Below are positions 1,294 through 24,426 of a stretch of 54,263 nt of DNA, piece after piece. How positions within the stretch are numbered: position 1 is the first letter of the stretch; each line of letters opens with the position of its first letter. The position numbers were made by a program, and so were the translations under genes. The stretch is from Acidimicrobiia bacterium. Lineage in GTDB: Bacteria > Actinomycetota > Acidimicrobiia > IMCC26256 > PALSA-610. The notes beneath the pieces are model-generated. The model was not told the origin of the DNA. It searched no databases and saw only the letters and a program-made list of their open reading frames with translations. The DNA lies in contig JADGOO010000037.1 of the NCBI GenBank assembly GCA_017882905.1, positions 1 to 54,263 of the forward strand. The letters run 5' to 3'.

Positions 1294-1779
1294 TCAGCCG
1301 AGGTACAGCACGAGGCTGCCGGCGCCGTAGCCCTCGACGGCGACCTCGTAGGCGCGCCGTCCACGCGGCTGGCGCCACAGCTGCTTGAGCTCATCCGTCA
1401 GCTGGCCCGGGAGCACATGCACCGTTCCAAGGCGCAGGTGCTTCGTGAACTCGCAGTTGAGGCACGTCGCCATGACGTTCAGCACCTCTCGGAAGCCTTC
1501 GAGGCTCGCGTCGAGCACGATGCGCTTCTCGTTGGCTTCCTGCACCGACGCCGCGGCGGCCTCGACCAACGCACCGCCGACCGAGTTGGCCACTGCCGGG
1601 TCGGCGTAGCCGATCACCGCGAGCTGGCCGTCGTCGGTCACGTACTCGGCGAACACTCCGGTCGCGTCGCGCTCAGGGTCGGGGGCATGCGTGCGCTTGA
1701 CACGCGTCGGCGCCGACGCGAGGTCCCCGAGCAACGTCTCGATGGCGTGCTCGTCGGGAGCCGGATAGTTCGTGGCCAT
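1294..1779 (-). CDS. 161-aa CheC/CheX-like protein with ExxN motif, paired with CheY
   Basis: No named family is recognised with certainty. The 161-aa soluble protein is a clear paralogue of the 161-aa product at 23468-23953: both start with a helix containing LLGDL and end with Y-x-V-x-V-x-x-YGAG-x-L. Helix 80-105 contains E98-V-L-N101, the ExxN spacing used by CheC, CheX and FliY phosphatases to hydrolyse CheY-P, and the segment before it (VIGYADPAVANSVGGALVE) could match the strand-helix preceding that motif. I infer a divergent CheC/CheX-fold protein acting on the adjacent receiver. It starts 6 nt after the upstream cheY stop and is the last gene of the minus-strand operon. Confidence 0.6.
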   Translation of the reverse strand: MATNYPAPDEHAIETLLGDLASAPTRVKRTHAPDPERDATGVFAEYVTDDGQLAVIGYADPAVANSVGGALVEAAAASVQEANEKRIVLDASLEGFREVLNVMATCLNCEFTKHLRLGTVHVLPGQLTDELKQLWRQPRGRRAYEVAVEGYGAGSLVLYLG

Positions 1780-1785
1780 GATCTG

Positions 1786-2145
1786 CTACACGAACGGAGC
1801 GAGGCACCGCGTGAAGTCGTCGGCGCCGAACGGCTTCGTGATCATGAAGGCCGCTCCGGCGTCGAACGCCCGGTCCTTGAAATCGGGAGAGCTCTCGGAG
1901 GTCACGAAGCCCAGCGGCACCGTGACGCCCTCGGCGCGCAGCGCCTCGAGGAGCTCGATGCCGGTCATCTCCGGCATGTTCCAGTCGGACAGGACTACGT
2001 CGGGTGCCGCGGCGCGGATCGCTTCGAGCGCCTCGCGCCCGTTCTCGGCTTCGACGATCTCGCAACCTTCGAAGCCGGCCTGCGCGACATGGCGTTTCAC
2101 GATCATTCGCATCGCGCGACTGTCGTCAACGATCAAGATCTTCAT
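1786..2145 (-). CDS. cheY: Chemotaxis response regulator CheY
   Basis: This stand-alone receiver domain of 119 aa has all catalytic residues: the acidic pair D7-D8, phosphoacceptor D54 in SDWNMPEMTG, T82 in FVTSE and K104 in TKPF. CheY proteins are phosphorylated by CheA and carry the signal to the flagellar switch. The start overlaps the stop of the upstream cheX-like gene by 4 nt (ATGA at 2142-2145), implying translational coupling of receiver and phosphatase. It is one of three CheY-like proteins here; the one at 5449-5823 shares the DWNMP core. Which of them drives the switch cannot be told from sequence. Confidence 0.92.
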   Translation of the reverse strand: MKILIVDDSRAMRMIVKRHVAQAGFEGCEIVEAENGREALEAIRAAAPDVVLSDWNMPEMTGIELLEALRAEGVTVPLGFVTSESSPDFKDRAFDAGAAFMITKPFGADDFTRCLAPFV

Positions 2146-2627
2146 GCGATCACCGCTGCTTTGCTCGCGCGCTCGTAGATCTCCACGGAGAACACCGATG
2201 CGCCACGCTGATAGGTCACGCCGACCGCCGGAGTCGCCCCGGGGATCCCGAGCAACAAGTGCGACCCCTGCACCACGGTCGGCAGCGACAACGCTGTCGT
2301 GGCAGGGAGGAGCGGTTTCACATTGCCGGCGATCATGTTCGCGAGCTCGCCGAGTGCGTCGGCGAGCTCGTCGGCGGCCACACGGTCGACCTCGCAGCCG
2401 AACATCGCCGCGGCGGCTTCGTTGCCGATGCTCTCGTCGCAACCGATCACGAGCGCTCCCGACCACTCGCCGGTGAACTGCACCGAGGCGCCGATCGCAC
2501 AACGCGATGGCGTCACGTCGGAGACCGCATCGCGCGGCGCGATCTCACCGAGGTCGAGGCCGAGCATCATGCTCGTTGCTCCTTCGACGATCTCGGCGAG
2601 GTCGGGCTCACTCACGGTGACGTGCAC
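2142..2627 (-). CDS. cheX: CheX-type CheY-P phosphatase
   Basis: This 161-aa protein matches the CheC/CheX/FliY phosphatase fold. The catalytic helix 86-100 carries E94-L-A-N97 followed by MIAGNVKP, the family ExxN signature, and it is preceded by strands with the pattern FTGEWSGALVIGCD. CheX removes phosphate from CheY-P; no CheZ or separate CheC is seen here. The GTG start at 2627 is preceded by a strong AGGAGG six nt upstream. The stop overlaps the next cheY by 4 nt. An alternative call is a divergent CheC; the single ExxN motif and the length favour CheX. Confidence 0.75.
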   Translation of the reverse strand: MHVTVSEPDLAEIVEGATSMMLGLDLGEIAPRDAVSDVTPSRCAIGASVQFTGEWSGALVIGCDESIGNEAAAAMFGCEVDRVAADELADALGELANMIAGNVKPLLPATTALSLPTVVQGSHLLLGIPGATPAVGVTYQRGASVFSVEIYERASKAAVIA

Positions 2628-2654
2628 GTTTGGCCTCCTGGAAGGAATGGTCGG

Positions 2655-3428
2655 CTAGGTCGCCGGCTCGAAGATCTCACTGATGCGGATGGCGAACTCG
2701 TCGTCGACCACCACGATCTCGCCACGTGCGATCGGAGTGCCGTTCACGAGCACGTCGACCGGTTGGTTGGCGAGACGATCGAGGTCGATCACTGCGCCGG
2801 AACCAAGAGCCAGGACGTCGCGCACCGTCATACGGCAGCGCCCGATCTCCGCCGTGACGCCCATCTCGACGTCGGCGAGCACGAGCGGCGATTCTCCGGC
2901 CAGCATGATTCGGCCCGGCTGCGAGGTGCGACCACGGCCCGGCGTCGCGCGCGGCGCTGCTTCGGGCGCCTCATCGGCCGCGCCGAGGAACGCCACGAAG
3001 CACGCCACCGGCTGTGTGCCGTCGAGGATCGGGAACACGACCAGCTCGGCCGCGCCGGCCAACCAGTCGAGATCGCGTTCGAGCGCGCGCTGCACGTCGA
3101 GTCGCTGCGAGGCGACCGAGCCGAGCGTGACGGCCGCGGCTTCGAGACCGGGCCGGCACGCGCTGGAGAACATCTCGTCGGCCGCGGAGGCCTCGAGGGA
3201 TTCTCCGAACGCCGCGGTTGCGACGACGGCCACGCTGCCCGCCGCGACTCCGTCGCTGGTGAACGACATCACCACGACGCGCAGATGGTCGTCGCGGAGC
3301 ACGTCGTGGACCGAGGCGCGGGGCATTCCCACCGCGAGGATCGTGTCGGGTCCGAGCGCGTCCTCGAGCGCGGTCACGCAGGCCAGCGGCGCGCCTGGGT
3401 CGGCCAAGAGTGCGGGCGACAACGTCAT
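2655..3428 (-). CDS. FliN-family switch protein, second copy
   Basis: This 257-aa protein is a paralogue of the fliN product at 13441-14316. The last 80 residues form a SpoA (FliN/FliM C-terminal) domain: DVEMGVTAEIGR, MTVRDVLAL, GAVIDLDRLANQPVDVLV and NG-x-x-IARGEIVVVDDEFAIRI. The first 170 residues form a separate domain shared with the paralogue (ILAVGMP, then a strand-helix pattern and VVFPILDGTQPV), distantly like the CheC/FliY fold but without an ExxN motif. FliN builds the C-ring. The ATG at 3428 was chosen for its GGAGG and because the shared domain begins just after it; upstream residues of the open frame look non-coding. Its place inside a chemotaxis operon suggests a CheY-P-contacting or alternative C-ring subunit. 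Confidence 0.82.
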   Translation of the reverse strand: MTLSPALLADPGAPLACVTALEDALGPDTILAVGMPRASVHDVLRDDHLRVVVMSFTSDGVAAGSVAVVATAAFGESLEASAADEMFSSACRPGLEAAAVTLGSVASQRLDVQRALERDLDWLAGAAELVVFPILDGTQPVACFVAFLGAADEAPEAAPRATPGRGRTSQPGRIMLAGESPLVLADVEMGVTAEIGRCRMTVRDVLALGSGAVIDLDRLANQPVDVLVNGTPIARGEIVVVDDEFAIRISEIFEPAT

Positions 3429-3501
3429 TGGGAAGTTCCTCCAAGCCGACCATTCGTGAATCGGCACAGAACAAGGCTGGTTGAGAGGCAGATCGGGTGC
3501 A

Positions 3502-4317
3502 TCAGCGGGGCCGATACCAGATGGCGCGGCCTTCACGCTCCGTGACATAGCCGTCGTGGACGTTCGACAGGGTCTCGGCCGACCCGAGGAAGAGGTAGCC
3601 ATCGGGAGCGAGCACGCGCTTGATCCTGTCGAGCAAGGTGCGCCGTGTCGGCACGTCGAAGTAGATGAGCACGTTGCGCAGGAATACGACGTCGAAGCGG
3701 TCGAGCGTCGGCCAGGGCGCGATGAGGTTCAGCTGCGCGAAGTCGACCATCGCCCGGAGCTCCGGCTTGACCCGCCACGCCAGCCCGTCGCGATCGAAGT
3801 GCCGGCTGAGCATGTTCGCGGGGAGGCCCCGGTTCACCTCGAGCTGGGTGTAGCCCGCGGAGCGCGCCTTTTCGAGGACGGTCTCGGTGATGTCGGTCCC
3901 CCAGATCTTCGCGTCCCACCTGGCCATGTCGGGTATCTGTTCGCGCATCACCATCGCGATCGAGTACGCCTCCTGGCCGGTCGATGCGGCGGCGCTCCAC
4001 ACGCGCAGTCGGTGGGTCGCAGCCCTCGAGCGCGCGAGCGCGGGCAGTACCGCGTCGGCCAACCCGCCGAACGGGTGCACATCGCGAAAGAACGATGTCT
4101 CGTTCGTCGTGAGCGCTTCGACGACCTTCGTGCGCAGCTCCGGGGAGCCTCGACGCAGCTGGTCGACCACGGCACTGATGTCTTCGAGCCCGGCGGCCCG
4201 GGCGACCGGCGAAAGGCGCGCCTCGATCAAGTAGTTCTTGTTCTCGCCGAGCACGATCGCGGCTTCGCGCTTGATGAGCTCGCGCACGTAGAGGAGATCG
4301 GAGCTGGAAGCGGCCAT
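3502..4317 (-). CDS. cheR: Chemotaxis protein methyltransferase CheR
   Basis: CheR transfers methyl groups from S-adenosylmethionine to glutamates of chemoreceptors. The 271-aa product has the N-terminal helical domain (1-75), the TNETSFFRD loop, a SAM-binding motif reading VWSAAASTGQEAYSIAM, an acidic strand end (IWGTDI), and FLRNVLIYFD followed by YLFLGSAETL, all characteristic of CheR. The start at 4317 shares one base with the cheB stop (TGATG), so the long upstream open frame is not coding. No C-terminal receptor-tethering TPR region is present. Confidence 0.93.
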   Translation of the reverse strand: MAASSSDLLYVRELIKREAAIVLGENKNYLIEARLSPVARAAGLEDISAVVDQLRRGSPELRTKVVEALTTNETSFFRDVHPFGGLADAVLPALARSRAATHRLRVWSAAASTGQEAYSIAMVMREQIPDMARWDAKIWGTDITETVLEKARSAGYTQLEVNRGLPANMLSRHFDRDGLAWRVKPELRAMVDFAQLNLIAPWPTLDRFDVVFLRNVLIYFDVPTRRTLLDRIKRVLAPDGYLFLGSAETLSNVHDGYVTEREGRAIWYRPR

Positions 4318-5435
4318 CAGCTCGTCCTCGCGCGCAGCTCGGCCGGGCGAACGGTTGGGCGAACGGCCGGGCGGCCGATCGCGGTGCGGCGCACGAGCTC
4401 GGGCACGACCTCGGCGAGCGGCAACACGCGCTGGGCGAGACCGGCACGCACCACGGTGCCCGGCATCCCCCACACCACGCTGGTCTCTTCGTCCTGGGCG
4501 ATCACAAGACCACCCGCATCGGCGATCGCCTGTGCGCCACCCGACCCGTCGGTGCCCATGCCCGTGAGCACGAATCCACATACGTGCGAGCCGAACACGG
4601 CGACCGCCGAACGGAACAACGGATCGGCGGAAGGTCGACACGAGTGCTCAGGGGGCGCGTCGTTCAGCACGGTCACGACCTTCGTACCGACACGTGCCAC
4701 TTCGAGATGACGACCGCCGGGCGCGATGTAGACGTTGCCGGCAAGCACCGGCTCACCGGCGACGGCCTCGCGCACGTGCACGTTCGCGGCACGGTCGAGC
4801 CGCTCGGCGAGCAGCCGGGTGAACGTCGGCGGCATGTGTTGCACCACGAGGATCGGCACGCCGATCTCGCGAGGGATGGCCGGAACGATGTCTTCGAGCG
4901 CTCGGGGACCGCCGGTCGACACAGCCACGACGACGCAGTCGACGCGCTGCGCCTGGCGCGGCGCAGGCGAGGCGCCGCGCGGTCGCACCGCCGGGAGACC
5001 CGGTGCGCCGGGCGAGACACGGGCGGCGCGAGCGCCGAGGGCGAGCAGCTTCGGGATGAGCGAGCCGCGCACCTGCGCGCGCGCCCCGGTGAGGCCTCCC
5101 GGCCCACTGGGCTTGGCCACGAAGTCGGATGCGCCGAGCGAGAGCGCTTCGAGCGTGGCCGCACCACCCTCCACGGTCAGCGTGGAGAACATGACGATCG
5201 GCAGCCGCGGGTGCTCCCGGCGCAGCGCGGCGACCGCCTCGAGCCCGTTCATCACGGGCATCTCGACGTCGAGCGTCACCACATCGGGGCGCAGCTCGTT
5301 GGCGAGCTCGACGGCCCGACGGCCGTTCTCGGCGATCCCCACAACGCTCAGGCCGGGCTCGTTGTTGATCACGTCGGCGACCAGACGGCGGATGACGGCC
5401 GAGTCGTCGGTGACGAGCACCTTGATGTCTCTCAC
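4317..5435 (-). CDS. cheB: Protein-glutamate methylesterase CheB
   Basis: This 372-aa protein has the usual two CheB domains. The receiver (1-125) has the acidic pair D10-D11, phosphoacceptor D56 in TLDVEMPVMNG and K at FVAKP. An alanine/proline-rich linker joins it to the C-terminal methylesterase (about 165-350) with the serine in VVAVSTGGP, the histidine in VVQHMPP and the aspartate in LTGMGTDGS. CheB demethylates and deamidates receptors, opposing CheR, and is activated by CheA phosphorylation. It overlaps cheR by one base and lies 13 nt after cheY. CheD is not seen in the window. Confidence 0.94.
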   Translation of the reverse strand: MRDIKVLVTDDSAVIRRLVADVINNEPGLSVVGIAENGRRAVELANELRPDVVTLDVEMPVMNGLEAVAALRREHPRLPIVMFSTLTVEGGAATLEALSLGASDFVAKPSGPGGLTGARAQVRGSLIPKLLALGARAARVSPGAPGLPAVRPRGASPAPRQAQRVDCVVVAVSTGGPRALEDIVPAIPREIGVPILVVQHMPPTFTRLLAERLDRAANVHVREAVAGEPVLAGNVYIAPGGRHLEVARVGTKVVTVLNDAPPEHSCRPSADPLFRSAVAVFGSHVCGFVLTGMGTDGSGGAQAIADAGGLVIAQDEETSVVWGMPGTVVRAGLAQRVLPLAEVVPELVRRTAIGRPAVRPTVRPAELRARTS

Positions 5436-5448
5436 GGCTGCCTTGGCT

Positions 5449-5823
5449 CTAGGTGGCCGAGGCGCGCACGAGGGCGACCTTGTCGGCCAGCACTTGCGGG
5501 GTGAACGGCTTCATCACGTACTCATCGGCACCGGCAGCGAGCGCGGCGTCGATGCTTTCACTCGACGTCTCACTCGTCACCATGATCAAGGACATCGCCT
5601 CGTAACAACGCTCGCCGCGAACGGCCCGCACGAACTCCACGCCGGACATCACGGGCATGTTCCAGTCGACGAAGGCCACATCCGGAAGCGGCGCGGATTC
5701 GAGCGCTGTCAGGCCCTCGGCACCGTTGCCCGCTTCTGTGAACTCGTCGAAGCCGCATTCGAGGAGCGCGCGGCGCAAGATCATGCGCATCGCCCTCGAG
5801 TCGTCAACGATCAGCGCCCTCAC
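5449..5823 (-). CDS. cheY: Chemotaxis response regulator CheY
   Basis: This 124-aa stand-alone receiver has a complete catalytic set: D7-D8 in IVDDSRAMR, D53 in FVDWNMPVMSG, a threonine in MVTSET and a lysine in YVMKPF. The GTG at 5823 was chosen because GGAGG lies seven nt upstream; an in-frame ATG eight codons earlier would place that Shine-Dalgarno inside the gene. It follows the receptor gene by 88 nt and precedes cheB by 13 nt, a classical adaptation cluster. It is close in sequence to the receiver at 1786-2145, pointing to duplication. Confidence 0.9.
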   Translation of the reverse strand: MRALIVDDSRAMRMILRRALLECGFDEFTEAGNGAEGLTALESAPLPDVAFVDWNMPVMSGVEFVRAVRGERCYEAMSLIMVTSETSSESIDAALAAGADEYVMKPFTPQVLADKVALVRASAT

Positions 5824-5911
5824 CGATACCTCCGAGTAGCCGCCCACCGGCTCATCGAGCAGCCGATCGAGCGCGTTTCGTGTCTTGGTCCCTCACGGCG
5901 GTCCGTACTGC

Positions 5912-7468
5912 TCAGATCTCGAACTGTCCCACGAGCTCGCGCAGGCTGAGCGACATCGACGCGAGATCGCCGGCCGAAGCGAGGGTCTGACTCGCGCCTT
6001 GCGCGGCTTCTTGCGCGGCGGTCGCTACGCCAGTGATGCTGCGCGCGATCTCGGCCGTTCCGCTGGCCGCTTCGCTGATACTGCGGCCGATCTCGTTCGT
6101 GGTGACCGATTGCTCTTCCACCGCCGCCGCGATCGCGCTCTGGAGCGCATTGATGCGATCGATGATCGTCATGATCTCGCCGACCGATCCGATCGCCTGG
6201 CGAGTGTCGGCCTGGATGGTGGTGATCCGCTGCGAGATGTCCTCGGTGGCCCGCGTGGTGCTCGATGCGAGCTCCTTCACCTCGTTGGCGACCACCGCGA
6301 AGCCCTTGCCGGCATCGCCGGCCCGAGCGGCTTCGATCGTCGCGTTGAGCGCAAGCAGGTTCGTCTGCTCGGCGATCGATGTGATCACGCCCACAACGTT
6401 GCCGATCTCGGTGCTGCTGTGATCGAGCCGACCGATGTTGTCGTTCACCGTCTGCGCCATCGACGCGGCCTCGAGCGCCACACCGGCAGCGTCGCTCGCG
6501 CTCTTCGAGATCTCGTTGATGCTCGCCGAGAACTCCTCCACCGCGGCCGCGACCGTGTTCACGATCGCGCTGACCTGCTCGCTCGCGGCGGAGACCACAC
6601 CCGACTGCGTCGAGGTTTCTTCGGCGCTTCCGGCCATCTGATTGCTCACGGCCGAGAGCTCGTCGGACGCACCCGCGAGCGTCTGCACCGTGGCGTCGAT
6701 CGTGCCAAGGGCGTCACGCATCGCGCGCAGCGCAGTGTTGAGCGACGTGGCCATCTCGCCGATCTCGTCGTCCGAGGTGACATCCAGCTCGGTGGAGAGC
6801 TTGCGCTTTGCCACATCGCCGAGGAGCCCGACGGTCTTGCGCAACGGCACTGTGATGGACCGGCTGATCCGCCATCCGAGGAGCACCACGATGGCCGTGG
6901 CGATCAGGATGGCGACGACGATCTCACGCTTCGTGGTGTCGGCCGTGGCCTGCGAGGTTCGCGCGATCTGAGCGGCCTGATCCTGGAGATGCTTCGAGAG
7001 GGAATCGATCCTCGGCGTCACGTCGTTGAAGGCTTGTTGAAATGCATCGAGCGTGGTGTTCCCGGTCGCAGCCGTGTTCGCCGCGGCGACGAGCGCGGCA
7101 ATCGGCGCTTCGAGGTCACCTGCCTCCCGGCTCAACGCCGGTGACACATTGGCGGCCTTGACCTCGGCGACCTTGGCCACCAGCGTCGCTTGGTCGTCGT
7201 GGAGCGCCGCGATCGCCGGATCGTGCTGCGGCGTGCCGGCGTAGCGCTGCGCCATGAGCACATCGGACTGGACGTTGTCGTGCGACGCGTCGACCTCGGC
7301 CATCGCCGCCTGGCCGCTGTTGGCCGCTTCCACACCGCGCAGCCCGCTGCTCATCGAGTTCGTTCCGCGGGTGCCGACCACGCCGACCACGAGGCCGACG
7401 ACGAGCGCGAGCGCGCTCAGTGCCGCGAGCTTGCGAGCAACGGTCCAGCGCAGCTTGGTGAAGTTCAT
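5912..7468 (-). CDS. Methyl-accepting chemotaxis protein
   Basis: This 518-aa transmembrane receptor has a basic N-terminus and first membrane helix (about 10-33), an alanine-rich periplasmic helical sensor (about 35-180), a second membrane helix ([16 protein letters not shown]), a HAMP domain and a cytoplasmic coiled-coil. The signalling hairpin tip reads [18 protein letters not shown], nearly invariant in MCPs, followed by [15 protein letters not shown]. The ligand is unknown. No C-terminal CheR-tethering pentapeptide is present. The ATG at 7468 gives a normal inner-membrane start with GGAG upstream; the longer open frame upstream is antisense to cheA. It is the first gene of the minus-strand operon and has a sigma-28-like promoter at 7519-7545. 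Confidence 0.93.
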
Positions 7469-7518
7469 GTGATGCTCCGTCCACGGGCGGTCTCGACCGC
7501 CACTGAGATTCGGAGCCC

Positions 7519-7545
7519 TCATCGGAATCGCCGGTCTGCACCTGA
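7519..7545 (-). promoter_or_regulatory. Candidate sigma-28 promoter for the MCP-cheY-cheB-cheR operon
   Basis: Reading the minus strand, TCAGGTGC (7545-7538), an 11-nt gap and TCCGATGA (7526-7519) follow the layout of the flbD and flhA sites. The receptor start codon is about 50 nt further on. Confidence 0.5.
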
Positions 7546-7684
7546 GGGCTGCCGGTCGCCGTTGTTGGACGAGGCCATACTCGTTCAACGTCCTCAGCAA
7601 TGGCGTTCGGCCGACGATGAATCCGCCATCGAGTGCCGGTGGGGCACCGTCACGAAGCGCGCGGCGCGTGAGCTGAGGAGACCG

Positions 7685-10018
7685 ATGGACGAGGAGACCG
7701 ACGAGCTGCTCGCCGAGTTCCTGGTCGAGAGCTTCGAGAACCTGGATGAGATCGACCAGGACCTCGTGAGCCTCGAACAGACGCCCGATGCGACCGACAT
7801 CCTCCAGCGGATCTTCCGCGCGTTCCACACGATCAAGGGCACCTGCGGGTTCCTCGGATACGAGACGCTCGGCGCCGTCACCCACGCGGCGGAGACGCTG
7901 CTCGCGCGACTGCGCGACGGTGCGATGGCGTACGACGCCGAGGTCGCCAGCGCGCTCCTGCGGTCGACCGATGCCGTTCGTGAGCTGCTCACCGTGATCG
8001 AGCGCACGAAGGAAGAGGGTTCCGACGAGCACCTCGACCTGATCGCCGAGCTCCACCATCTGGCCGAGCGCACCGCCGCGCACGACGCGGCTCCTTCGAC
8101 CGACGTCCAGCTCCAGGCCGACGACGACGCCGAGCCGGGCCCCCGCCTCGGTGAGCTCCTCGTGGAGCGGGGCGTGACCACCGAGGCCGACGTCGCGATC
8201 GCGTTGGTCCGCCAGGCCGACCTCGGCGATCCTCGCCCGATCGGCGAAGTGCTCATCGACGCCGGCGCCGTCGACCCTGAAGACGTGCGCTCCGCGCTGT
8301 CGAGCCAGCAGCACACGCGCGCCGCCGACGCCACGCTACGCGTCGACGTGAGCCTGCTCGATTCGCTCGTCACGCTCGTGGGCGAGCTCGTGTTGACCCG
8401 CAACCAGATCCGCCGACTCACCGGCAACGACGGCGTCGACAGCACACTGGTGATCGCGGCCCAGCGGCTCAATGGCGTGACCGCCGAGCTCCAGTCGCAC
8501 GTGATGAAGACGCGCATGCAACCGATCGGCGCCGTGTGGTCGAAGCTGCCGCGCATCGTGCGCGATCTCGCCGTGCAGTGCGAGAAGGCGATCCGAGTCG
8601 ACATGCACGGTCAGGGAACGGAGCTCGACAAGGCGATCGTCGAAGCCATCCGCGACCCGCTCACGCACATGGTCCGCAACGCGGTCGACCATGGCATCGA
8701 ATCACCGGCAGAACGGGTCGCCGCCGGCAAGCCCGAGGAGGGCGTGCTCACGTTGCGTGCGTTCCACGAGAGCGGCAACGTGCACATCGAGATCGCCGAC
8801 GACGGTCGCGGCATCGACGTGACCAAGGTCAAGGCGAAGGCGGTGCGCCAACAGCTCATCACCGAAGACCAGGCCGCGCGGATGACGGACCGCGAAGCTG
8901 TGGATCTGGTCTTTCGGGCCGGCTTCTCGACCGCGGAAGCCGTGAGCAACCTGAGCGGACGCGGCGTGGGCATGGATGTGGTGCGCACCAACATCTCGCG
9001 CATCGGCGGCACCGTCGAATGCGACAACCACCCGGGTGCCGGGACCACGTTCAAGGTCAAGATCCCACTGACGCTCGCGATCGTGCCCGCGTTGATCACG
9101 CGTGGCGGCGGCGAACGATTCGCCGTGCCGCACGCCAACCTCGTGGAGCTCGTCGGCCTCGGCACCGAGTCGAGCCGCGCCATCGAGTCGGTGCAGGGCG
9201 CACCCGTCTACCGACTGCGCGACCGGATGCTGCCGATCGTGCACCTCAACGCGGAGCTGAACCTCACGCCGCCCGCGTCGGACACGCGCCGGAGCGCCGG
9301 CACGATCGTTGTCCTGCGGGCCGACGGTCATGAGTTCGGTCTCGTGGTCGACGAAGTGATCGACACCGAGGAGATCGTGGTCAAGCCCTTGCCGGCGCAC
9401 GTCGACGCCGTTCCCGTCTTCAGTGGGTGCACGGTGATGGGCGACGGTGACGTTGCGCTCATCCTCGACGTTCGCGGCATCGCCGAGGTCGCCGGCGTGC
9501 TCGATCCGGACGGCGCGGTCAACGCGAACGCGGAGACCACCACGACCGAATCCAACTCAACCGCCGACCCCGTGCTCATCGTGCGCGTCGACGCGACCAC
9601 GCGGGCTGCCCTCGCGCTCGACAACATCGAACGGCTCGAAGTGTTCGATCCGACGCGCGTGGAGCTCGCGGCCGGCCATCCGGTCGTGCAGTACCGAGGC
9701 GCGCTGCTCCCGTTGCTCGATCTCTCCGCCACAGTCGGAGCCGCAACACAACGCGATTCGAGCGACGAGCTCGTGGTCGTGGTGTACGCCGACGGCCACC
9801 GCTCGGTGGGCCTGGTGATCGAGCGCGTCGTCGACATCGTGGAAGAGCACACGACGAACTACGAGGTGCCGTACCGCTTCGGCGTCGTTGGTTCGACGAT
9901 CGTTCGAGGCGACGTCACCGACCTGATCGACGTCGCCGCACTCGTCGACGCGATGCCGGCATCGTTCGCAGCACTGGTGAACGGCGCGATCCAGCTGGAG
10001 GCAAGCGATGCAGTCTGA
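7685..10018 (+). CDS. cheA: Chemotaxis histidine kinase CheA with GspE-N-like domain and two CheW domains
   Basis: This 777-aa CheA begins with an HPt domain (1-105; phosphorylated H48 in [13 protein letters not shown]). Residues 152-210 form two repeated helical hairpins ([10 protein letters not shown]..., [11 protein letters not shown]...) resembling the N-terminal domain of GspE/PilB ATPases and occupy the place of the usual P2 domain. Then come the P3 dimerisation helices (about 217-285, [15 protein letters not shown]), the HATPase ([29 protein letters not shown]; about 325-465), and two CheW-like domains in tandem (about 465-605 and 625-770). CheA phosphorylates CheY and CheB on receptor signals. 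The ATG at 7685 starts the HPt directly; upstream frame is antisense to the MCP. The stop overlaps cheW by 11 nt. Confidence 0.93.
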
Positions 10019-10448: not shown

Positions 10449-10463
10449 GAAACGGAATTCGAC

Positions 10464-12416: not shown

Positions 12417-12453
12417 GTCGACCCGAGCACCCCCGAAAGCGCTGCTCCTGCCC

Positions 12454-12480
12454 TCAGGTCGGCGTGGGGGCCGCCGATCG
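12454..12480 (+). promoter_or_regulatory. Candidate sigma-28 promoter within the operon, before fliM
   Basis: TCAGGTCG (12454-12461), an 11-nt gap and GCCGATCG (12473-12480) fit the same layout as the other candidate sigma-28 sites. Transcription would begin near 12487, which would exclude the longest fliM start (GTG 12464) for this transcript. Confidence 0.45.
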
Positions 12481-12487
12481 GGTGAGC

Positions 12488-13408
12488 GTGGCAACCGCGA
12501 CCAGCCGGAAAGGCGCAAAGCCGGGTGCGATGGCATTCGACTTCCGCCGGCCGAACAAGTTCAGCCGTGATCACGTCCGGGCCTTCCAGATCGTGCACGA
12601 GACCTTCGCCCGCCAGCTCTCGACAGTGCTGGCGACCACGCTCCGCGCGGTCGCGCACGTGACGCTGACCTCCGTCGAGCAGCTCACCTACGACGAGTAC
12701 GTGCGGTCGCTGCCGAACCCGTCGTACATGGTGATCCTGTCGCTGAACCCGCTTCCCGGCGCGGCCGTGCTGCAGCTTCCGCTTCCGATCGCGTTTGCGG
12801 CGATCGACCGGCTGCTCGGCGGTAGCGGCGACGCGCTGAGCCCGAAGCGTCCGCTCACCGAGATCGAGAGCAACCTGATGCGCGGCCTCGTCGGCCGGGC
12901 GCTGCGCGAGCTCGAGTACGCCTACGAGACGCTCGTGCGCGTCGAAGTCGAAGTCGTCCAACAAGAGTTCAACCCGCAGTTCGCGCAGATCGCCGCGCCG
13001 AGCGACATGGCCTTGGCCGTGAACTTCGAGACGCGCATCGGCGAGAAGCGCGGAACGTCGAGCATCTGCATCCCGCACACAACGATGCAGCCGGTGCTCG
13101 AGAGCCTCGCAAGTCAACAGCTCTTCGCCGACCGCTCGAGTCGCGACCCCTACGAGTGGGCGCGCGCGCTCGAAGAGGCGATCGGCGGCGTGTGCGTGGA
13201 GCTCGCGGTGCGGTTCGAATCGGTTGCGCTCGCGTCGCAGGAGATCATCGACCTGCAAGTGGGCGACATCGTTCCCCTCGAACACCCCGTCGACCAGCCG
13301 CTGACGGTCTCGGTCGGCGACGTGCCCTGCTACGAGGTCGTCACCGGTCGGCGCGGCAAGCGCCTCGCCGGACTCGTCGTCGGCAACCACACCACCAGAT
13401 TGCGCTGA
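12488..13408 (+). CDS. fliM: Flagellar motor switch protein FliM
   Basis: FliM forms the middle of the C-ring and normally receives CheY-P. The core is clear: FDFRRPNKFSRDHVRAFQIVHETFARQL, which I shorten to its FDFRRPNKFS start and HETFARQL end; then VEQLTYDEYVRSLPNP, DRLLGGSGD and the C-terminal SpoA-like domain (DIVPLEHPVDQPLTVSVGDVP). The conserved N-terminal CheY-binding peptide of the EIDALL type is absent, also when the frame is read back to 12419. The start is uncertain: GTG 12464, 12482 and 12488 and ATG 12530 are in frame. I list 12488 because a sigma-28-like box would start transcription there; none has a good Shine-Dalgarno. It is followed 32 nt later by fliN. Confidence 0.85.
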   Translation: MATATSRKGAKPGAMAFDFRRPNKFSRDHVRAFQIVHETFARQLSTVLATTLRAVAHVTLTSVEQLTYDEYVRSLPNPSYMVILSLNPLPGAAVLQLPLPIAFAAIDRLLGGSGDALSPKRPLTEIESNLMRGLVGRALRELEYAYETLVRVEVEVVQQEFNPQFAQIAAPSDMALAVNFETRIGEKRGTSSICIPHTTMQPVLESLASQQLFADRSSRDPYEWARALEEAIGGVCVELAVRFESVALASQEIIDLQVGDIVPLEHPVDQPLTVSVGDVPCYEVVTGRRGKRLAGLVVGNHTTRLR

Positions 13409-13440
13409 GGCGAAGCCGTGTCACGAGCAGTAGGAGCCAG

Positions 13441-14316: not shown

Positions 14317-14320
14317 GCTC

Positions 14321-14734: not shown

Positions 14735-14763
14735 GCATCACCCGGCGCGCCTGGAGGCCCGCC

Positions 14764-15684: not shown

Positions 15685-15747
15685 CGCCTACCGGTCCACG
15701 CCATCTGCCCTGCCGTCGACGCCATCCCCGCACTTCGAGAGGTTCTC

Positions 15748-16017: not shown

Positions 16018-16083
16018 CGGGACCGCTCCCATCATCTGGTCCTCTTCCGCGCCCGACGCCGTCACTGTTCAGGACACACACCC

Positions 16084-16836: not shown

Positions 16837-16842
16837 TCCGGC

Positions 16843-18292: not shown

Positions 18293-18650
18293 GGAACCGC
18301 GACCGATCAGCCGGCGCCGACGGCAGCCAGTCGAGCGCGAGCGTGGTCTCGGTGACGCGCAGCACCGTCTCGTCGCCGTCGGGTTCGAGGCGGAGCTCCA
18401 CGGCCGACGGGGCACGATCACCGTGCACCGGCGCCCAGGTGAACGAGAGGCGTGTGGCGGGCTCGACCACGTGGACCACGCCGATGCGCTCGTCGCCGTT
18501 GGCGTCGACCACGCGCAAACGGCCTCCCGGGCGGGCGTCGAACTCCACCTCGGCGTCGAACCAGGCGCTGAGGCCGGCCGGATCGGTGAGCAGCGGCCAG
18601 AGCTCGTCGGCGGCCGCCGCGAAGCGCTCGGTTCGTTCGATCGTCGTCAT
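18273..18650 (-). CDS. SRPBCC (AHSA1/START-like) domain protein
   Basis: The 125-aa product is a single hydrophobic-cavity domain of the AHSA1-like SRPBCC superfamily: ERTERFAAAADELWPLLTD at the start, LSAWFDAEVEFDARPGGRL, a central EPATRLSFTWAP and a C-terminal TVLRVTETTL. Such proteins often form a unit with an ArsR regulator, as here; their ligands are usually unknown. The ATG at 18650 has a clear GGGAGG. It is transcribed away from the ClpP-like gene, from which it is separated by a 68-nt control region. Confidence 0.88.
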   Translation of the reverse strand: MTTIERTERFAAAADELWPLLTDPAGLSAWFDAEVEFDARPGGRLRVVDANGDERIGVVHVVEPATRLSFTWAPVHGDRAPSAVELRLEPDGDETVLRVTETTLALDWLPSAPADRSRFRALART

Positions 18651-18665
18651 CCGGCCTCCCAAAGA

Positions 18666-18687
18666 TGTGCAACCCAAGTATTGCACA
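18666..18687. promoter_or_regulatory. Palindromic operator candidate TGTGCAA-N8-TTGCACA
   Basis: The two 7-nt arms (18666-18672 and 18681-18687) are a perfect inverted repeat; another TTGCACA lies at 18725-18731. The palindrome covers an extended -10 candidate for the minus-strand SRPBCC-arsR unit (TGCAATACT on the minus strand) and the -35 (TTGCAC, 18681-18686) of the divergent ClpP-like gene. An ArsR dimer bound here could block both promoters. Confidence 0.55.
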
Positions 18688-18710
18688 TGCGTCCCCGACG
18701 CGCGGATAAT
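18681..18710 (+). promoter_or_regulatory. Promoter of the ClpP-like gene; transcript probably leaderless
   Basis: TTGCAC (18681-18686), an 18-nt spacer and GATAAT (18705-18710). Only 8 nt separate the -10 from the ATG at 18719, so transcription should start at or within about 2 nt of the start codon. Confidence 0.6.
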
Positions 18711-18718
18711 CTGCAACC

Positions 18719-19327
18719 ATGCAGTTGCACATGGAGACCCAAGACGCGCCCGCGGCCTCGCCCCTCGCGCCGAACACGCTCGAGACCGAAGTCGTCAAGA
18801 TGCTGCTCGACCAGCGGCGGGTGATGCTCACCGGCGAGGTCACCGACGCGCTCGCGCACATGGTGTGCGCGCAGCTGCTCGTGGCCGCGCAACGCGCCGA
18901 CGCCGACCACCCGGTCGTGTTGATCATCAACTCGCCGGGCGGCAGCGTCGACGCCGGATTCGCGATCTACGACACGATGCAGACGCTGGGCGTACCGGTG
19001 GCGACGGTGTGCGTGGGCATCGCCGCGTCGATGGGCCAGTTCCTGTTGTGCGGCGGCACGCCCGGCTTGCGCTACGCACACCGCCACGCGCAGATCCTGA
19101 TGCATCAACCGCACGGCGCCGTGCAGGGCTTCGCCACTGACATCCGCATCCACGCTGACCACTTCGGTCGCCGCCGCCGGTTGATGGCCGAGCTCACGGC
19201 CAAGCACACCGGCCAGTCGGTCGACCAGGTGGAAGCCGACGCCGACCGCGACCACTGGTTCGACGCCGACGAAGCCCTCGCGTACGGCATGGTCGACCAT
19301 CTCGTCGACGGCCCCCTCGACCTCTAA
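18719..19327 (+). CDS. ClpP-family serine protease
   Basis: This 202-aa protein is a ClpP peptidase, the proteolytic ring of ATP-dependent Clp proteases. The catalytic triad is intact: serine in GIAASMGQFLL, histidine in LMHQPHGA and aspartate in DRDHWFDADEA. The INSPGGSVDAGFAIYDTM oligomerisation segment is also present. It stands alone, without clpX or a second clpP, between flhB and flhA, and shares a control region with the SRPBCC-arsR unit, so it is likely an accessory paralogue rather than the housekeeping copy. An in-frame ATG 12 nt downstream is a possible alternative start. Confidence 0.9.
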   Translation: MQLHMETQDAPAASPLAPNTLETEVVKMLLDQRRVMLTGEVTDALAHMVCAQLLVAAQRADADHPVVLIINSPGGSVDAGFAIYDTMQTLGVPVATVCVGIAASMGQFLLCGGTPGLRYAHRHAQILMHQPHGAVQGFATDIRIHADHFGRRRRLMAELTAKHTGQSVDQVEADADRDHWFDADEALAYGMVDHLVDGPLDL

Positions 19328-19417
19328 GACCCGAACCGACTGGCAGCGCGCGCGCTCCGCGCTCGGATGCCACCCACCGTCCCCAGTATTCACCACGCTG
19401 CGTGGCGAGTAGGGCAC

Positions 19418-19444
19418 TCAACTCCGGGGCGCATAGGCCGATCA
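19418..19444 (+). promoter_or_regulatory. Candidate sigma-28 promoter for flhA
   Basis: TCAACTCC (19418-19425), an 11-nt gap and GCCGATCA (19437-19444) are the best sigma-28 match in the window. Transcription would begin near 19451, which excludes the upstream in-frame ATG at 19367 and supports the GTG at 19514. Confidence 0.65.
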
Positions 19445-19513
19445 GACCATGCGCTCTTCGGACGGGGCGCGCTCGCACGCCACGGATTGGCCGGCACCTC
19501 GTCTGAGGCTTCG

Positions 19514-21586
19514 GTGGACTCGAGTCGCATCGGACAGATCGCCATCCCTGGGGCGATCGTCGGCATCGTGGTGATGATGGTCGTGCCGTTGCCGGCCGCC
19601 ATCCTCGACCTGCTGCTCGTCGCGAACATCGCGCTGGCCACACTCGCGTTGCTGAGCAGCATGTTCACGACACGCGTTCTCGACTTTTCGATCTTCCCTT
19701 CGTTCCTCCTGATCGCAACGCTGTTCCGGCTCGCGCTGAACGTCAGTGTCACGCGGCTCGTGCTGCTGAACGGCTACGCGGGCAACGTCATCGAGAGCTT
19801 CGGCCACTTCGTGGTCGGAGGCTCGGTGGTCGTCGGCCTCGTGATCTTCCTCATCCTCATCGTGATCCAGTTCATCGTGATCACGAACGGTGCCGGGCGT
19901 GTCGCCGAGGTCGCGGCCCGCTTCACTCTCGACGCGATGCCCGGCAAGCAGATGGCCATCGATGCCGACCTCAACGCCGGTGTCATCGACGAGTTCGAAG
20001 CCAAGCGACGCCGCAAGGAGATCGCCGACGAAGCCGACTTCTACGGAGCGATGGACGGCGCGTCCAAGTTCGTGAAGGGCGACGCGATCGCGGCGATCGT
20101 GATCGTGCTCATCAACCTCGTCGGCGGCTTCGTCGTCGGCATCGTGCAGAAGCACATGAGCTTCGGCGATGCGATCCAGCACTACTCGCTGCTCACCGTG
20201 GGTGACGGTCTCGTCGCGCAGATCCCGGCGTTGCTCATCTCGCTGTCGAGTGGTCTGATCGTGACCCGTGCCGCGACCGACAGCGACCTCGGCACCGACC
20301 TGCTGGCCCAGTTCACGAGCCACAAGCGCACCCTGCAGCTCGCGGGCGGCGCAATCGGTTCGTTGGCGATCGTGCCCGGACTGCCGAAGCCGCCGTTCAT
20401 CGTGATCGGCGGTCTGCTGCTGGTGCTCGCGTCACGGCTGCCGTCCGAAGCCGAGCGCGTCGCCCGCGAAGCCGAAGAAGCGCAGCGCAGCGTCGCTGAT
20501 GCCGAAGCAGCCGCGAACCGACCCGACTCGCCCGAGCAGATCGCGCACGACATGCGCGTCGAGCCGCTCGAGCTCGAGATCGCTTACGACCTCATCGACC
20601 TCGTCGACGCCACGCACGGCGGCGACCTGCTCGACCGCGTGCGCGCGCTACGGCGCAAGCTGGCGCTCGAGCTCGGAGTGGTGATCCCGCTCGTGCGCAC
20701 CCGCGACAACCTCGACCTGCCGGCCCACACCTACGCGATCCGCGTGCACGGCGTGGAGATCGGCCGCGGTGAGGCGCCTCCCGGACACGTGCTCGTGCTC
20801 GGCGACGGCGACGGCGGCGCGCGCCTTCCTGGGATGCAGACGCACGAGCCGGTGTTCGGCCTACCGGCCACGTGGGTGCCGCTCGAGTTCCGCCACCAAG
20901 CCGAAGTGCTCGGGGCGACGGTCGTGGACCGGGCGTCGGTCATCACCACGCACCTCGCCGAGGTCGTGCGCCGCTACGCTTCGCGGCTCTTGTCGCGCCA
21001 AGACGTGAAGACACTCGTCGACATCGTGAAGCAGACCGACCCGGTCGTCATCGACGAGATCAACGGCGCGGGCATCACCCACGGGGAGATTCAGCGGGTG
21101 CTCCAACAGCTCCTCGACGAGAGTGTCGGCATCCGCGACCTCGTACCGATCTTCGAAGTGATCTCGGAACGCGCTCGCGTCACCAAAGACCCCGAAGCAC
21201 TCGCCGAAGCGGTGCGCACTGCACTTGGTCCGGCGATCTCCGCGGCCCACGCACGCGACGGCAAGCTCCCGGTGATCACGCTCGAGCCCGTGATCGAACA
21301 CGCCCTCGCCGACGCATTGCGCCACGGCGACCATGGTTCCTACCTCGCGCTCGACCCCGGGTTCGCCGAGCAGCTCGCGCGGTCGATCGCCGAACAGGCC
21401 GAGACTGCCGAGATGCGCGGCATCGAGCCGGTGTTCGTGTGCGCGCAGCAGCTGCGAGCTTCGATCCGGCGCCTGCTGCGCGGTGTCGCGCCCCGCCTTC
21501 CCGTCCTCGCCTACACGGAGCTCGGTAACCAGCTCGAGCTCGAGACCCTTGCGGTGGTGAACATTGTCCAGCCAGCGACGCTTTGA
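19514..21586 (+). CDS. flhA: Flagellar export gate protein FlhA
   Basis: FlhA is the large export-gate component that docks chaperone-substrate complexes. The product, 690 aa from the chosen start, has eight predicted membrane helices in the first 300 residues, the FHIPEP region (RFTLDAMPGKQMAIDADLNAG and ADFYGAMDGASKFVKGDA), and the large C-terminal cytoplasmic domain with LVDIVKQTDPVVIDE and GLAPRLPVLAYTEL-like residues (GVAPRLPVLAYTEL). The open frame extends to 19367, but a sigma-28-like promoter lies at 19418-19444 and GAGG precedes the GTG at 19514. It overlaps the flhF-like gene by 23 nt. Confidence 0.94.
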   Translation: MDSSRIGQIAIPGAIVGIVVMMVVPLPAAILDLLLVANIALATLALLSSMFTTRVLDFSIFPSFLLIATLFRLALNVSVTRLVLLNGYAGNVIESFGHFVVGGSVVVGLVIFLILIVIQFIVITNGAGRVAEVAARFTLDAMPGKQMAIDADLNAGVIDEFEAKRRRKEIADEADFYGAMDGASKFVKGDAIAAIVIVLINLVGGFVVGIVQKHMSFGDAIQHYSLLTVGDGLVAQIPALLISLSSGLIVTRAATDSDLGTDLLAQFTSHKRTLQLAGGAIGSLAIVPGLPKPPFIVIGGLLLVLASRLPSEAERVAREAEEAQRSVADAEAAANRPDSPEQIAHDMRVEPLELEIAYDLIDLVDATHGGDLLDRVRALRRKLALELGVVIPLVRTRDNLDLPAHTYAIRVHGVEIGRGEAPPGHVLVLGDGDGGARLPGMQTHEPVFGLPATWVPLEFRHQAEVLGATVVDRASVITTHLAEVVRRYASRLLSRQDVKTLVDIVKQTDPVVIDEINGAGITHGEIQRVLQQLLDESVGIRDLVPIFEVISERARVTKDPEALAEAVRTALGPAISAAHARDGKLPVITLEPVIEHALADALRHGDHGSYLALDPGFAEQLARSIAEQAETAEMRGIEPVFVCAQQLRASIRRLLRGVAPRLPVLAYTELGNQLELETLAVVNIVQPATL

Positions 21587-23033
21587 GGGCCCCGTTCTCG
21601 AGGATCTCCTCGAGCGCGTGCGCCACGAGACGGGCGAAGGTGCGCGCATCGTCGCGGCCAACCGCGTCCGCCGCGGCGGCCTCGGTGGCTTCTTCGCGCG
21701 CGAGCACTTCGAAGTGGTGGTCGACGAGACGGAGGTCGAAGCGCCGGAGGAGTCGCGGTCGCGCCGCGCTCGCCGCACGGCGACCAAGACGCGCAGCGCC
21801 AAGGGTCGCAGCGCGACGAACAACGACAACGACATCGACAGCGACGTCCTCATCGCCGAGCGCGTCGACGAGCCGGTACGATCGCTCGGTTCGAAGGCCG
21901 CGGCATCGGTGCTCGATCTGGTGGATGCGACGAATGACGAGGAGCGCCACCACAACCTCGTGGATCTGACCCGGTCGGAGCGCGTTCCGGTTCGCCGTCG
22001 TGTCGACCTCGACGACGAGCCTGTCGGCTTCGACGACCTGCGCGATGTCGATCTCCACGACGATCTCCACGACGATGTCGACGACTACGAGGTTGCCGTC
22101 ATCGACGATGACGACGATGCGCCCACGCTCGTCACCGACCGTCCCGACCGCTTCCACGAGATCCTCGAGCGCTTGGCCGGCGCCGTCGAGAGCGACGCCG
22201 AGCTCGACGAGCTGCAGCGGGTCGACTCGCGTGAGCTGATCGAGAGCATCGGGCGGCGTGGCCGCACACCCGAGGCGCCCGAGGTTCCGATCGTGCCTCG
22301 CGTCCCGAGCGACGAGTCGCGCGCCACGAGCACGCCGGGCTTCGTGCCGCTGCGCGTCACGCGTGCCGCTCGCGCGATCGAGGTGATCGAGCGCCCCGAG
22401 AACGTGCTGTTCCGCCTGGGTGTTCCTGCCCGTTTCGTGCCGCGCGGCATGTCGGGCACGCAGCTGCGCGGCGCGCTCATCGACTCGCTGTCGAAGCTGC
22501 CGTCGCCCGCGCTGCTCCCCGAGACGAACGGCATCGTGATCGCGGTGGTCGGTGTGGGTGCCCGCCCCGTCATGCTCGCCCGTGCGCTCGCGGCCGAGCA
22601 CTTCCTCGACCCCGACAACGTGGTGCTCGCCACCGAGACCGAGCTCGGTGACGGGGTGCCGTCGTGGCTGCAGATCAACGACGCACCCACTGCGCAGGAG
22701 CGGCGGCGCAGTTGGCGGCGACGCGACCACACCACGTTCGTGGCCGTGTCGGTTCCGGCCGCCAGTGCCGACAGCTGGGCCCGTGGCGTGCTCGACGGTC
22801 TCGAACCCACGCAGGTGTGGGGCATCGCGCACGCGGCCTGGAAGCCCGAAGACATCGACGGTTGGGGAGCGCGGCTCGGCGGCTTCGATGTGCTCGCGCT
22901 CGAGAACCTGGCCGACACCGTGAGCCCGGCGGCCGCGCTCACGCTCGACCTGCCCATCGGCCGACTCGACGGCGCGCCGGCAACTCCCCTGCGGTGGGCC
23001 GACCTGTTGCTCGACCGGATGACCCAGCAATGA
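21564..23033 (+). CDS. FlhF-like protein with degenerate GTPase domain
   Basis: This 489-aa protein occupies the flhF position after flhA. Residues 5-50 match the FlhF N-terminal pattern (LEDLLERVRHETGEGARIV, RRGGLGGFFAREHFEVVV). A long acidic, low-complexity middle follows (about 55-210). The C-terminal third (about 270-489) resembles an SRP-type GTPase core, but where the P-loop GPTGVGKTT is expected, near residues 328-338, it reads VVGVGARPVML, with no Walker A lysine. FlhF is an SRP-type GTPase that positions flagella at the pole; this version probably cannot bind nucleotide normally. FlhF assignment is by position and N-domain, so moderate. Confidence 0.65.
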   Translation: MSSQRRFEGPVLEDLLERVRHETGEGARIVAANRVRRGGLGGFFAREHFEVVVDETEVEAPEESRSRRARRTATKTRSAKGRSATNNDNDIDSDVLIAERVDEPVRSLGSKAAASVLDLVDATNDEERHHNLVDLTRSERVPVRRRVDLDDEPVGFDDLRDVDLHDDLHDDVDDYEVAVIDDDDDAPTLVTDRPDRFHEILERLAGAVESDAELDELQRVDSRELIESIGRRGRTPEAPEVPIVPRVPSDESRATSTPGFVPLRVTRAARAIEVIERPENVLFRLGVPARFVPRGMSGTQLRGALIDSLSKLPSPALLPETNGIVIAVVGVGARPVMLARALAAEHFLDPDNVVLATETELGDGVPSWLQINDAPTAQERRRSWRRRDHTTFVAVSVPAASADSWARGVLDGLEPTQVWGIAHAAWKPEDIDGWGARLGGFDVLALENLADTVSPAAALTLDLPIGRLDGAPATPLRWADLLLDRMTQQ

Positions 23034-23461
23034 GCACGGGTGAACGGCCGCCGCACGTCGACCCGCAACTCCTCTTCGGCATCAGCTTGCTCGCGGGTCT
23101 TGCGCTCTCGGCGCAGGCCCTCAACGGCGCCATGCACGGCGACGTCGACATCACGGTCGCCGGTCTGCGTCTGCTGGTCGCGATCGCATTCTCGTGGGCC
23201 GCGATCTACGGGATCACCGCCATGTTCGCCAGCTTCTCCGCGCACGTCGACCAGGCTGCGCGCGACACGGCCGAACGACCCGACACGCCGCGACGACGGG
23301 CGACCGATCTTGCGGGCGGTGTGGCCCCGACCGCGATCGACGTGCCGAGCACAGCGACCAATGCACCCAATCCGATCGACGCGGCGTTGCCCACGCCACC
23401 GGCGCTCGCGACCGGCTTGGCAGCACTCGGCGCCGCCAACAACGAGGCGTCGGCCGCCTGA
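23030..23461 (+). CDS. Small two-helix membrane protein of unknown function
   Basis: The family is not recognised. The 143-aa product has two hydrophobic segments (about 15-32, FGISLLAGLALSAQALN; about 45-66, LRLLVAIAFSWAAIYGITAM) and a charged then alanine/proline/threonine-rich C-terminal tail that is probably disordered. Its ATG overlaps the stop of the flhF-like gene by 4 nt (ATGA at 23030-23033), so it is translationally coupled to the flagellar operon and likely has a motility-related role. It ends 6 nt before a convergent gene. Confidence 0.75.
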   Translation: MSTGERPPHVDPQLLFGISLLAGLALSAQALNGAMHGDVDITVAGLRLLVAIAFSWAAIYGITAMFASFSAHVDQAARDTAERPDTPRRRATDLAGGVAPTAIDVPSTATNAPNPIDAALPTPPALATGLAALGAANNEASAA

Positions 23462-23467
23462 GCTCGC

Positions 23468-23953
23468 TCAGCCGACGAGGATCGCGAGCTTGCCCGCGCC
23501 GTACTCGTCGACGGTCACGTCGTAGTCACGCCGTGCCGCAGGCTCACGCACGAACGCGTTCGTGGCGTCGGGCAGCTCGCTCGTGGTCGTCTGCACCTCG
23601 TGCCAACGCAACGGAGCGAAGTCCTCGTGGTTGAACAACCGCGCGGCGACCTTGACGATCTCGCTGAGGTTCTCGAGGTTCTGCGCGTCGACCTGGCCCG
23701 ACTTCACGGCTTGTTCCACTGCGGTCGGCGCGACCATCGTCAGGGCGGCGCCGAGCGCGTTCGACAGGCGCAGGTCGGTGATGCACATCGCCCCGACACC
23801 GCCGTCGTCGTCGCGGTAGTCGGCCATCACCGCGGCCGTCTCGGGCTCGAGCACGAGCGGGTCGCCGGCGACCACGGTCACCGAGCGGCCCAGCAGGTCG
23901 CCGAGGAGCTCGCGGATGGCTTCCGCCTTCGGAAACGGGTGCGTGGTGGGCAT
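23468..23953 (-). CDS. 161-aa CheC/CheX-like paralogue lacking the motif asparagine
   Basis: This 161-aa soluble protein is a paralogue of the product at 1294-1779, with identical length, LLGDL near the N-terminus and YGAGKLAILVG at the C-terminus. At the positions equivalent to E98-V-L-N101 of the paralogue it has E98-I-V-K101, so the asparagine needed by CheC/CheX-type phosphatases is replaced by lysine. If the fold assignment holds, this copy would bind a receiver without dephosphorylating it. As in the first locus it lies downstream of a CheY-like gene, here with an 89-nt gap. Function is otherwise unknown. Confidence 0.6.
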   Translation of the reverse strand: MPTTHPFPKAEAIRELLGDLLGRSVTVVAGDPLVLEPETAAVMADYRDDDGGVGAMCITDLRLSNALGAALTMVAPTAVEQAVKSGQVDAQNLENLSEIVKVAARLFNHEDFAPLRWHEVQTTTSELPDATNAFVREPAARRDYDVTVDEYGAGKLAILVG

Positions 23954-24042
23954 TGTCTCGAACTTCGGACCGTCGACGGCTCACCTTGAGCGCGACCGCG
24001 CGCGGTCTGTGGCCCGACGGTCAGGAGATCAGCGGCGCGAGA

Positions 24043-24426
24043 TCAGCGCCGGGCGCCCACGTGGGCGAGCGCTTCCACGAGCGCAGCTCGCGTGAAGGGC
24101 TTCGTCACGCAGTCATCGGCGCCGGCCGCCGCGGTCGCCTGCCCCGTGCCGGCGGGCGCAGTCGCAGTCGTGAGCATGACCACCGCCACGTGACCGGCAC
24201 CGTCGCGTTCGCGTACCGCCTGCGCGAGGTCGGCGCTGTCGGCGTCGGCGAGGTTGTCGTCGAGGAGGGCCAGCTGCGGGAGATCGGCCGCCCCGCAGGC
24301 GGCGAGGCTGTCGAGCGCGCTCTGGGCCGTCGGTGCCTCGATCACGTCGTCGTAGCCGCACTCGTGCAGCACGCGCTTGAGGACCGTCCGCATCGCCTTG
24401 GAGCTGTCGACGACCATCGCACGCAT
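24043..24426 (-). CDS. Divergent CheY-like receiver protein
   Basis: This 127-aa stand-alone receiver keeps the phosphoacceptor (D56 in LALLDDN), a threonine (near 86-87) and the lysine (K109 in VTKPF), but the acidic pair reads D7-S8 instead of D-D, and the usual MP-x-M-x-G after the phosphorylation site is missing. The second acidic residue normally holds Mg2+, so phosphorylation may be weak. The N-terminal helix (SSKAMRTVLKRVLHECGYDD) is clearly related to the receiver at 5449-5823. A sigma-28-like promoter precedes it at 24476-24502, placing it in the motility regulon with the 161-aa protein downstream. Confidence 0.82.
   Translation of the reverse strand: MRAMVVDSSKAMRTVLKRVLHECGYDDVIEAPTAQSALDSLAACGAADLPQLALLDDNLADADSADLAQAVRERDGAGHVAVVMLTTATAPAGTGQATAAAGADDCVTKPFTRAALVEALAHVGARR

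Follow-up and report, generated by a model that had tools for sequence, protein, structure and literature searches.

The window, by which we mean the whole 54,263-nucleotide stretch of Acidimicrobiia DNA that was analyzed, carries a set of chemotaxis genes at 1294-10018 and a gene for the flagellar switch protein FliM further on:

1294-1779, minus strand: P0001, a 161-aa CheX-superfamily member of a new family, with E98-V-L-N101 intact
1786-2145, minus strand: CheY1 receiver, 119 aa (PF00072, 2.2e-26), belonging to the CheY1 clade
2142-2627, minus strand: genuine CheX (PF13690, 4e-18)
2655-3602, minus strand: FliN-like protein with a long N-terminal region and FliMN_C at its C-terminus; start uncertain
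3502-4317, minus strand: CheR, from similarity to relatives; start inferred from the conserved N-terminus
4317-5435, minus strand: CheB (PF01339, PF00072)
5449-5847, minus strand: CheY2, the second receiver of the che operon
7190-10018, plus strand: CheA open frame with two CheW domains, an F5-type kinase; the true start lies inside the frame
12464-13408, plus strand: FliM, without the N-terminal LSQxEIDALL CheY-binding peptide

The genes for CheX, CheY1 and P0001 close an operon-like series whose other members are cheY2, cheB, cheR and the FliN-like gene. The sequence-only reading of this DNA had described a complete CheY followed by a 161-aa protein with E98-xx-N101 at 1294-2145, and both the residues and the coordinates were right: CheY1 keeps every key residue (DD, D, T, K), the gap between it and P0001 is 6 bp, and P0001 has a proline at N101+23. 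What that reading had missed is the genuine CheX directly upstream of CheY1 (motif GELANMIAGN, in a D-x3-E-x2-N pattern); since its gene and the start of CheY1 overlap by 4 bp, module 1 is to be read as cheX-cheY-161aa. The chemosensory system was typed as F5 from a CheA with two CheW domains, following the definition given in the available sections of a survey of actinobacterial flagella (PMC10746217); these same sections list CheX and CheY as components in the F1/F5 models and make no mention of the 161-aa protein. The FliN-like protein at 2655-3602 has about 240 unannotated N-terminal residues and is additional to the FliN located after FliM.

A second receiver and 161-aa protein, module 2, are encoded at 23468-24426:

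21564-23461, plus strand: FlhF-like protein and the short membrane-protein gene that follows it; in relatives, these neighbours are conserved and convergent to the family gene
23468-23953, minus strand: P0004, the second family member, 161 aa, with E98-I-V-K101 (N101 changed to K, P124 to T)
24043-24426, minus strand: module 2 receiver, 127 aa (PF00072, 6.4e-15), from the CheY2 lineage

This pair, too, had been described correctly, as a CheY-like D-S receiver followed by a 161-aa protein with E98-xx-K101, in the same gene order and orientation as module 1 (both on the minus strand). In the receiver, V-D-S-S replaces V-D-D-S, and with D-S as its acidic pair the residue set of an active CheY is not complete; the phospho-acceptor D, the T and the K are kept. 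The gap between the receiver and P0004 is 89 bp. As had been proposed, P0001 and P0004 are paralogues (34% identity over the full length, E=7e-25), and a search of the genome for further family members found none besides these two.

Neither P0001 and P0004 nor the other members matched a relevant Pfam or NCBIfam model or any PDB sequence, and the earlier impression that no such family had been described holds for these three collections. PF13690 was matched by 0 of 29 family members at E<=1, BLASTP of P0001 against CheX gave E=0.13, and phmmer and profile searches of the PDB with the family returned nothing relevant. Pfam hits of the 161-aa proteins such as Leptin were set aside as chance matches. 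AlphaFold models built from an alignment of 29 rows had pLDDT values of 94.0 (P0001) and 92.2 (P0004), and at E<=0.001 the PDB structures matched by either model were exclusively CheC, CheX, FliY or FliM, with moderate TM-scores of 0.4-0.68; the FliM middle domain (4gc8, 5x0z) and FliY (4hyn) were among the top matches. A structure prediction compared with CheX, CheC and FliY had been set beforehand as a test able to refute the CheC/CheX assignment, and the fold that it returned is that of CheC/CheX/FliY/FliM.

Profile-profile comparison gave the link that sequence searches of Pfam and the PDB did not. The family profile aligned with a profile of 31 CheX sequences at an hhalign score of 42.9 (E 1.8e-6), with ExxN placed on ExxN, whereas 60 column-shuffled CheX profiles reached at most 15.6, the reversed CheX profile 13.6, and eleven other chemotaxis or flagellar families from the same genomes at most 14.0. 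Because the score is far above all of these controls, remote homology to CheX is well supported; no profile-profile match was obtained with FliM, whose profile comprised 3 sequences only. These data indicate that the 161-aa family is an unannotated branch of the CheC/CheX/FliY superfamily, homologous to CheX with the motif in register, and the proposal that ExxN is the CheC/CheX motif is borne out by this alignment with the CheX active site. The YGAG-x-L C-terminus, by contrast, is not the separate novelty it was taken for: this YGxGxL end makes up a conserved turn linking the final two strands.

Across the family, E98 is kept in 41 of 42 members and N101 in 40 of 42, which places both among the most conserved positions and takes the ExxN observation beyond chance. 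An acidic residue stands four positions before the glutamate in 36/42 members, resembling the D-x3-E-x2-N of CheX. An extension of the motif to N-x22-P was exact in close relatives, yet it occurred in 23/42 overall and was therefore dropped as a criterion. The exceptions to the motif are P0004 (N to K) and the copy in genome G050 (E to G, N to D), and both of these stand apart from CheY1. The G050 gene (locus L055, 9976-10455), in which both ExxN residues are changed, directly follows a FliN-like gene that is a relative of the one at 2655-3602; FliM and CheW were looked for in G050 and neither was detected. A phosphoesterase neighbour seemingly common to G050 and module 2 was rejected, as the identity was about 33% over part of the gene.

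The family was found in 28 of 395 Acidimicrobiia genomes, after removal of one false hit (G120, E 5e-4, in a peptidase-like frame), and FliM was present in 26 of these 28 compared with 35 of the 367 family-negative genomes (p=1e-21). In a sample of the phylum, 15 of 397 genomes carried the family and all 15 had FliM. The family's presence goes with flagella. A contig scan with the P0001 sequence alone gave no matches; with the family alignment A5 it gave eight loci, mostly from Nitriliruptoraceae and Egibacter/Egibacteraceae MAGs. All members so far come from Actinomycetota, the phylum to which the search was nearly confined. A survey of neighbourhoods, which had been suggested as a check, showed homologues beside receiver genes almost without exception: nearly every locus surveyed, in Acidimicrobiia and in other actinobacterial classes, has a CheY1-type receiver beside the family gene or fused to it, cheX adjoins the two in most loci, and the order cheR-cheX-cheY1-family recurs in other actinobacterial families sampled. 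Frames that fuse a receiver to the family domain occur in six genomes (G317, G394, G288, G202, G343 and G255), with the receiver confirmed by Pfam in four of them. In G331, which additionally encodes an ordinary FliM, the family domain precedes FliM in a single open frame right after cheX and cheY1. The best explanation of these associations is that the family is a component of the actinobacterial flagellar (F5-type) chemosensory system.

Among known proteins, CheX (PF13690) shares with the family the predicted fold, a single ExxN on a long helix, profile homology and a gene beside cheY; however, the family has no sequence match to PF13690 or to any CheX in the PDB, a true CheX is encoded in P0001's own operon, and family members are in places fused to a receiver or FliM. 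CheC (PF04509) likewise has the superfamily fold and ExxN, but it has two such motifs where the family has one; the first helix of the family (10-20) is without ExxN, and there is no PF04509 match. The family also belongs to an F5-type system, whereas F1 is the type marked by CheC and CheD in the available sections of the survey (PMC10746217). FliY, the C-ring phosphatase that joins a CheC-like domain to a FliN domain, is similar in fold (4hyn) and in its flagellar association, and one family member is fused to FliM; unlike FliY, the family protein is a stand-alone 161 aa with one ExxN and no FliMN_C/FliN domain.

In CheX, the glutamate and the asparagine of ExxN are both needed for dephosphorylation (PMC3510030, PMC3035606). 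By analogy, we infer that P0001 binds CheY1-P, and it probably dephosphorylates CheY1-P as well. P0001 would recognize the phosphorylated form of CheY1, the product of the adjoining gene, and would insert the helix bearing E98 and N101 into the CheY1 active site; there, as in CheX, the partner of E98 would be the receiver lysine and N101 would hold a water in position, so that P0001 would dephosphorylate CheY1-P in parallel with the genuine CheX encoded in that operon. P0004, from which the amide is gone, is probably inactive judging by its residues. We lean, with modest confidence, towards the whole of this proposal, namely that P0001 is a second CheX-type protein that binds and dephosphorylates CheY1-P and that P0004 is at most a binding protein. 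It should be noted that a second phosphatase needs a reason, because a CheX with an intact motif is already encoded in the same operon, and that FliM middle domains, which are not phosphatases, rank among the best fold matches. The FliM middle domain is not known to carry an ExxN.

The presence of CheX in the same operon also raises the alternative that the family protein acts on CheX and not on CheY-P, for example by forming a heterodimer with, or by inhibiting, the CheX whose gene lies two genes away. CheX proteins dimerize, as seen in solved structures, and the family and CheX are alike in fold and length and are mostly encoded close together. Such a role would not require conservation of ExxN, however; the fusions, to receivers and to FliM, speak rather for the receiver and the switch as targets, and no CheX was seen nearby in the loci of G345, G206, G355 and G255. 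We consider it very unlikely.

CheY-P acts on the motor in the main output step of chemotaxis, which is thought to go through the N-terminal peptide of FliM. A peptide of the LSQxEIDALL type was found in 0 of 39 FliM loci in family-positive genomes and in 27 of 60 in family-negative genomes (Fisher p=8e-8). Outside the window's own order, phylogeny confounds this correlation, since most of the genomes with the peptide come from other families and probably have other chemosensory types. Looser forms of the peptide, which the pattern did not count, occur in a few family-negative genomes, and the contrast is therefore, if anything, understated. None of the genomes sampled has both the family and the FliM peptide. 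The contrast holds inside the order of the window, in which G057 carries the peptide and is without the family. In G060, which has chemotaxis genes, neither the peptide nor a family member was found. In that genome (locus L190, 1335-2887), a CheY2-like receiver and CheX adjoin FliM.

A second role for the family, the docking of CheY1-P at the switch, is possible in view of three features: the structural similarity to FliM and FliY, the fusion with FliM and the absence of the FliM peptide. FliY is both a part of the C-ring and a phosphatase, and the phosphatase and docking roles need not be mutually exclusive. In a stronger form, the family protein would be mainly a docking adaptor that binds CheY1-P, carries the signal to the flagellar switch and replaces the missing FliM peptide, with any phosphatase activity secondary, as with FliY in the C ring. 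The peptide distribution, including G057, is in line with this, as are the family domain at the front of FliM in G331, the high rank of the FliM middle domain and FliY in the structure comparison, and the G050 locus, in which the FliN-like gene is the chemotaxis or flagellar gene beside the family gene; the receiver fusions would make the family an output domain. On the other hand, both catalytic-type residues are strictly conserved, as would be expected of chemistry beyond docking, the peptide correlation has the phylogenetic confounding described above, and G060 has chemotaxis genes with neither peptide nor family, so that we regard a mainly adaptor function as conceivable but doubtful. A possible functional analogy, with no homology claimed, is CheF, a separate protein that would link CheY-P to a motor lacking the FliM peptide; the available part of its source describes it as an adaptor that in archaea connects CheY with the archaellum (PMC6718144). 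That this family serves as the receptor for CheY-P in the flagellar motor of Actinobacteria, with FliM having lost its CheY-binding peptide and a CheX-fold protein, either free or fused to the receiver or to FliM, having taken on the reading of the signal at the switch and perhaps its erasure, is a speculation to which we give little weight. The sampled family-positive Acidimicrobiia and Nitriliruptoria-type genomes have a FliM without the peptide and an unannotated CheX-fold protein beside CheY, and the route by which CheY reaches the motor there becomes a concrete, testable question. A family unrecognized by Pfam and NCBIfam is now added, with P0004 as a natural catalytic-residue variant.

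The origin of module 2 was addressed by synteny and phylogeny. In six relatives (loci L056, L057, L058, L059, L062 and L063), the che cluster ends with the family gene and faces flhA-flhF in convergent orientation, and P0004 occupies the place of that gene in the same orientation. In the family tree, P0004 clusters with the orthologues from four of the six syntenic relatives (support 96/92), while P0001 pairs with the G050 copy (100/99) and next with the module 1 copy of G048 (94/91), a related genome that has the module 2 arrangement. P0004 stands at the ancestral flhA-flhF site as the positional orthologue of the gene found in the relatives. In the receiver tree, the module 2 receiver and its G048 counterpart form a clade (96/95) that lies outside CheY1 (100/100) on the CheY2 side, the exact root of the clade being uncertain because of long branches (1.25 and 2.52). 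Because the two modules have receivers from different CheY subfamilies, they are not simple mutual copies, and module 2 is not a second module 1. A simple reading is that the old cluster lost cheB-cheR-cheX-cheY1, leaving cheY2 and the family gene. Module 2 would then be the remainder of an ancestral che cluster next to flhA-flhF, in which P0004 kept the fold and lost the catalytic asparagine and now lies beside a fast-evolving, CheY2-derived receiver with a putatively damaged metal site.

The sequence-only reading had instead taken module 2 for a duplicate of module 1 in which both partners lost their chemistry together, giving a phosphorylation-independent binding switch. N101K and the D-S receiver do occur in one genome, and the P0004 frame is open, with strong codon bias and the structural positions of the family kept; however, the different clades of the two receivers and the grouping of P0004, but not P0001, with syntenic orthologues speak against a duplicate. 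The G048 pair, moreover, retains ExxN, and its receiver has instead lost the T, replaced by A, so that joint loss in both partners is no rule and is seen only in the genome of the window, where a passively decaying remnant would explain it equally well. The duplication account is not supported by these results and is, in our view, quite unlikely; a binding-only switch is possible for P0004 alone, in one genome.

Whether the remnant retains a function is a separate matter. It might be a functionless, decaying relic, left behind by the relocation of the che operon to its current site next to fliL. In position it matches the cluster of the relatives reduced to its two ends, cheY2 and the family gene, without cheB-cheR-cheX-cheY1, and the receivers sit on the long branches given above. 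Against this, the arrangement is retained in two genera (G000 and G048), and P0004 has no stop codons, high GC3, a confidently predicted fold and a moderate branch of 0.37. A relic is thus a serious candidate, although we hold it to fall short of an even chance.

Two further features of the flagellar cluster were observed. In the FlhF-like protein (21564-23033, plus strand), the FlhF N-terminal region is present and is accompanied by a 'GVGARPVMLARALA' stretch without a P-loop, and its relatives look similar; Pfam gave no SRP54 GTPase match for this protein, which is possibly a pseudo-GTPase FlhF. A ClpP-type protease gene (18719-19327, plus strand) is flanked by flhB and flhA inside the cluster.
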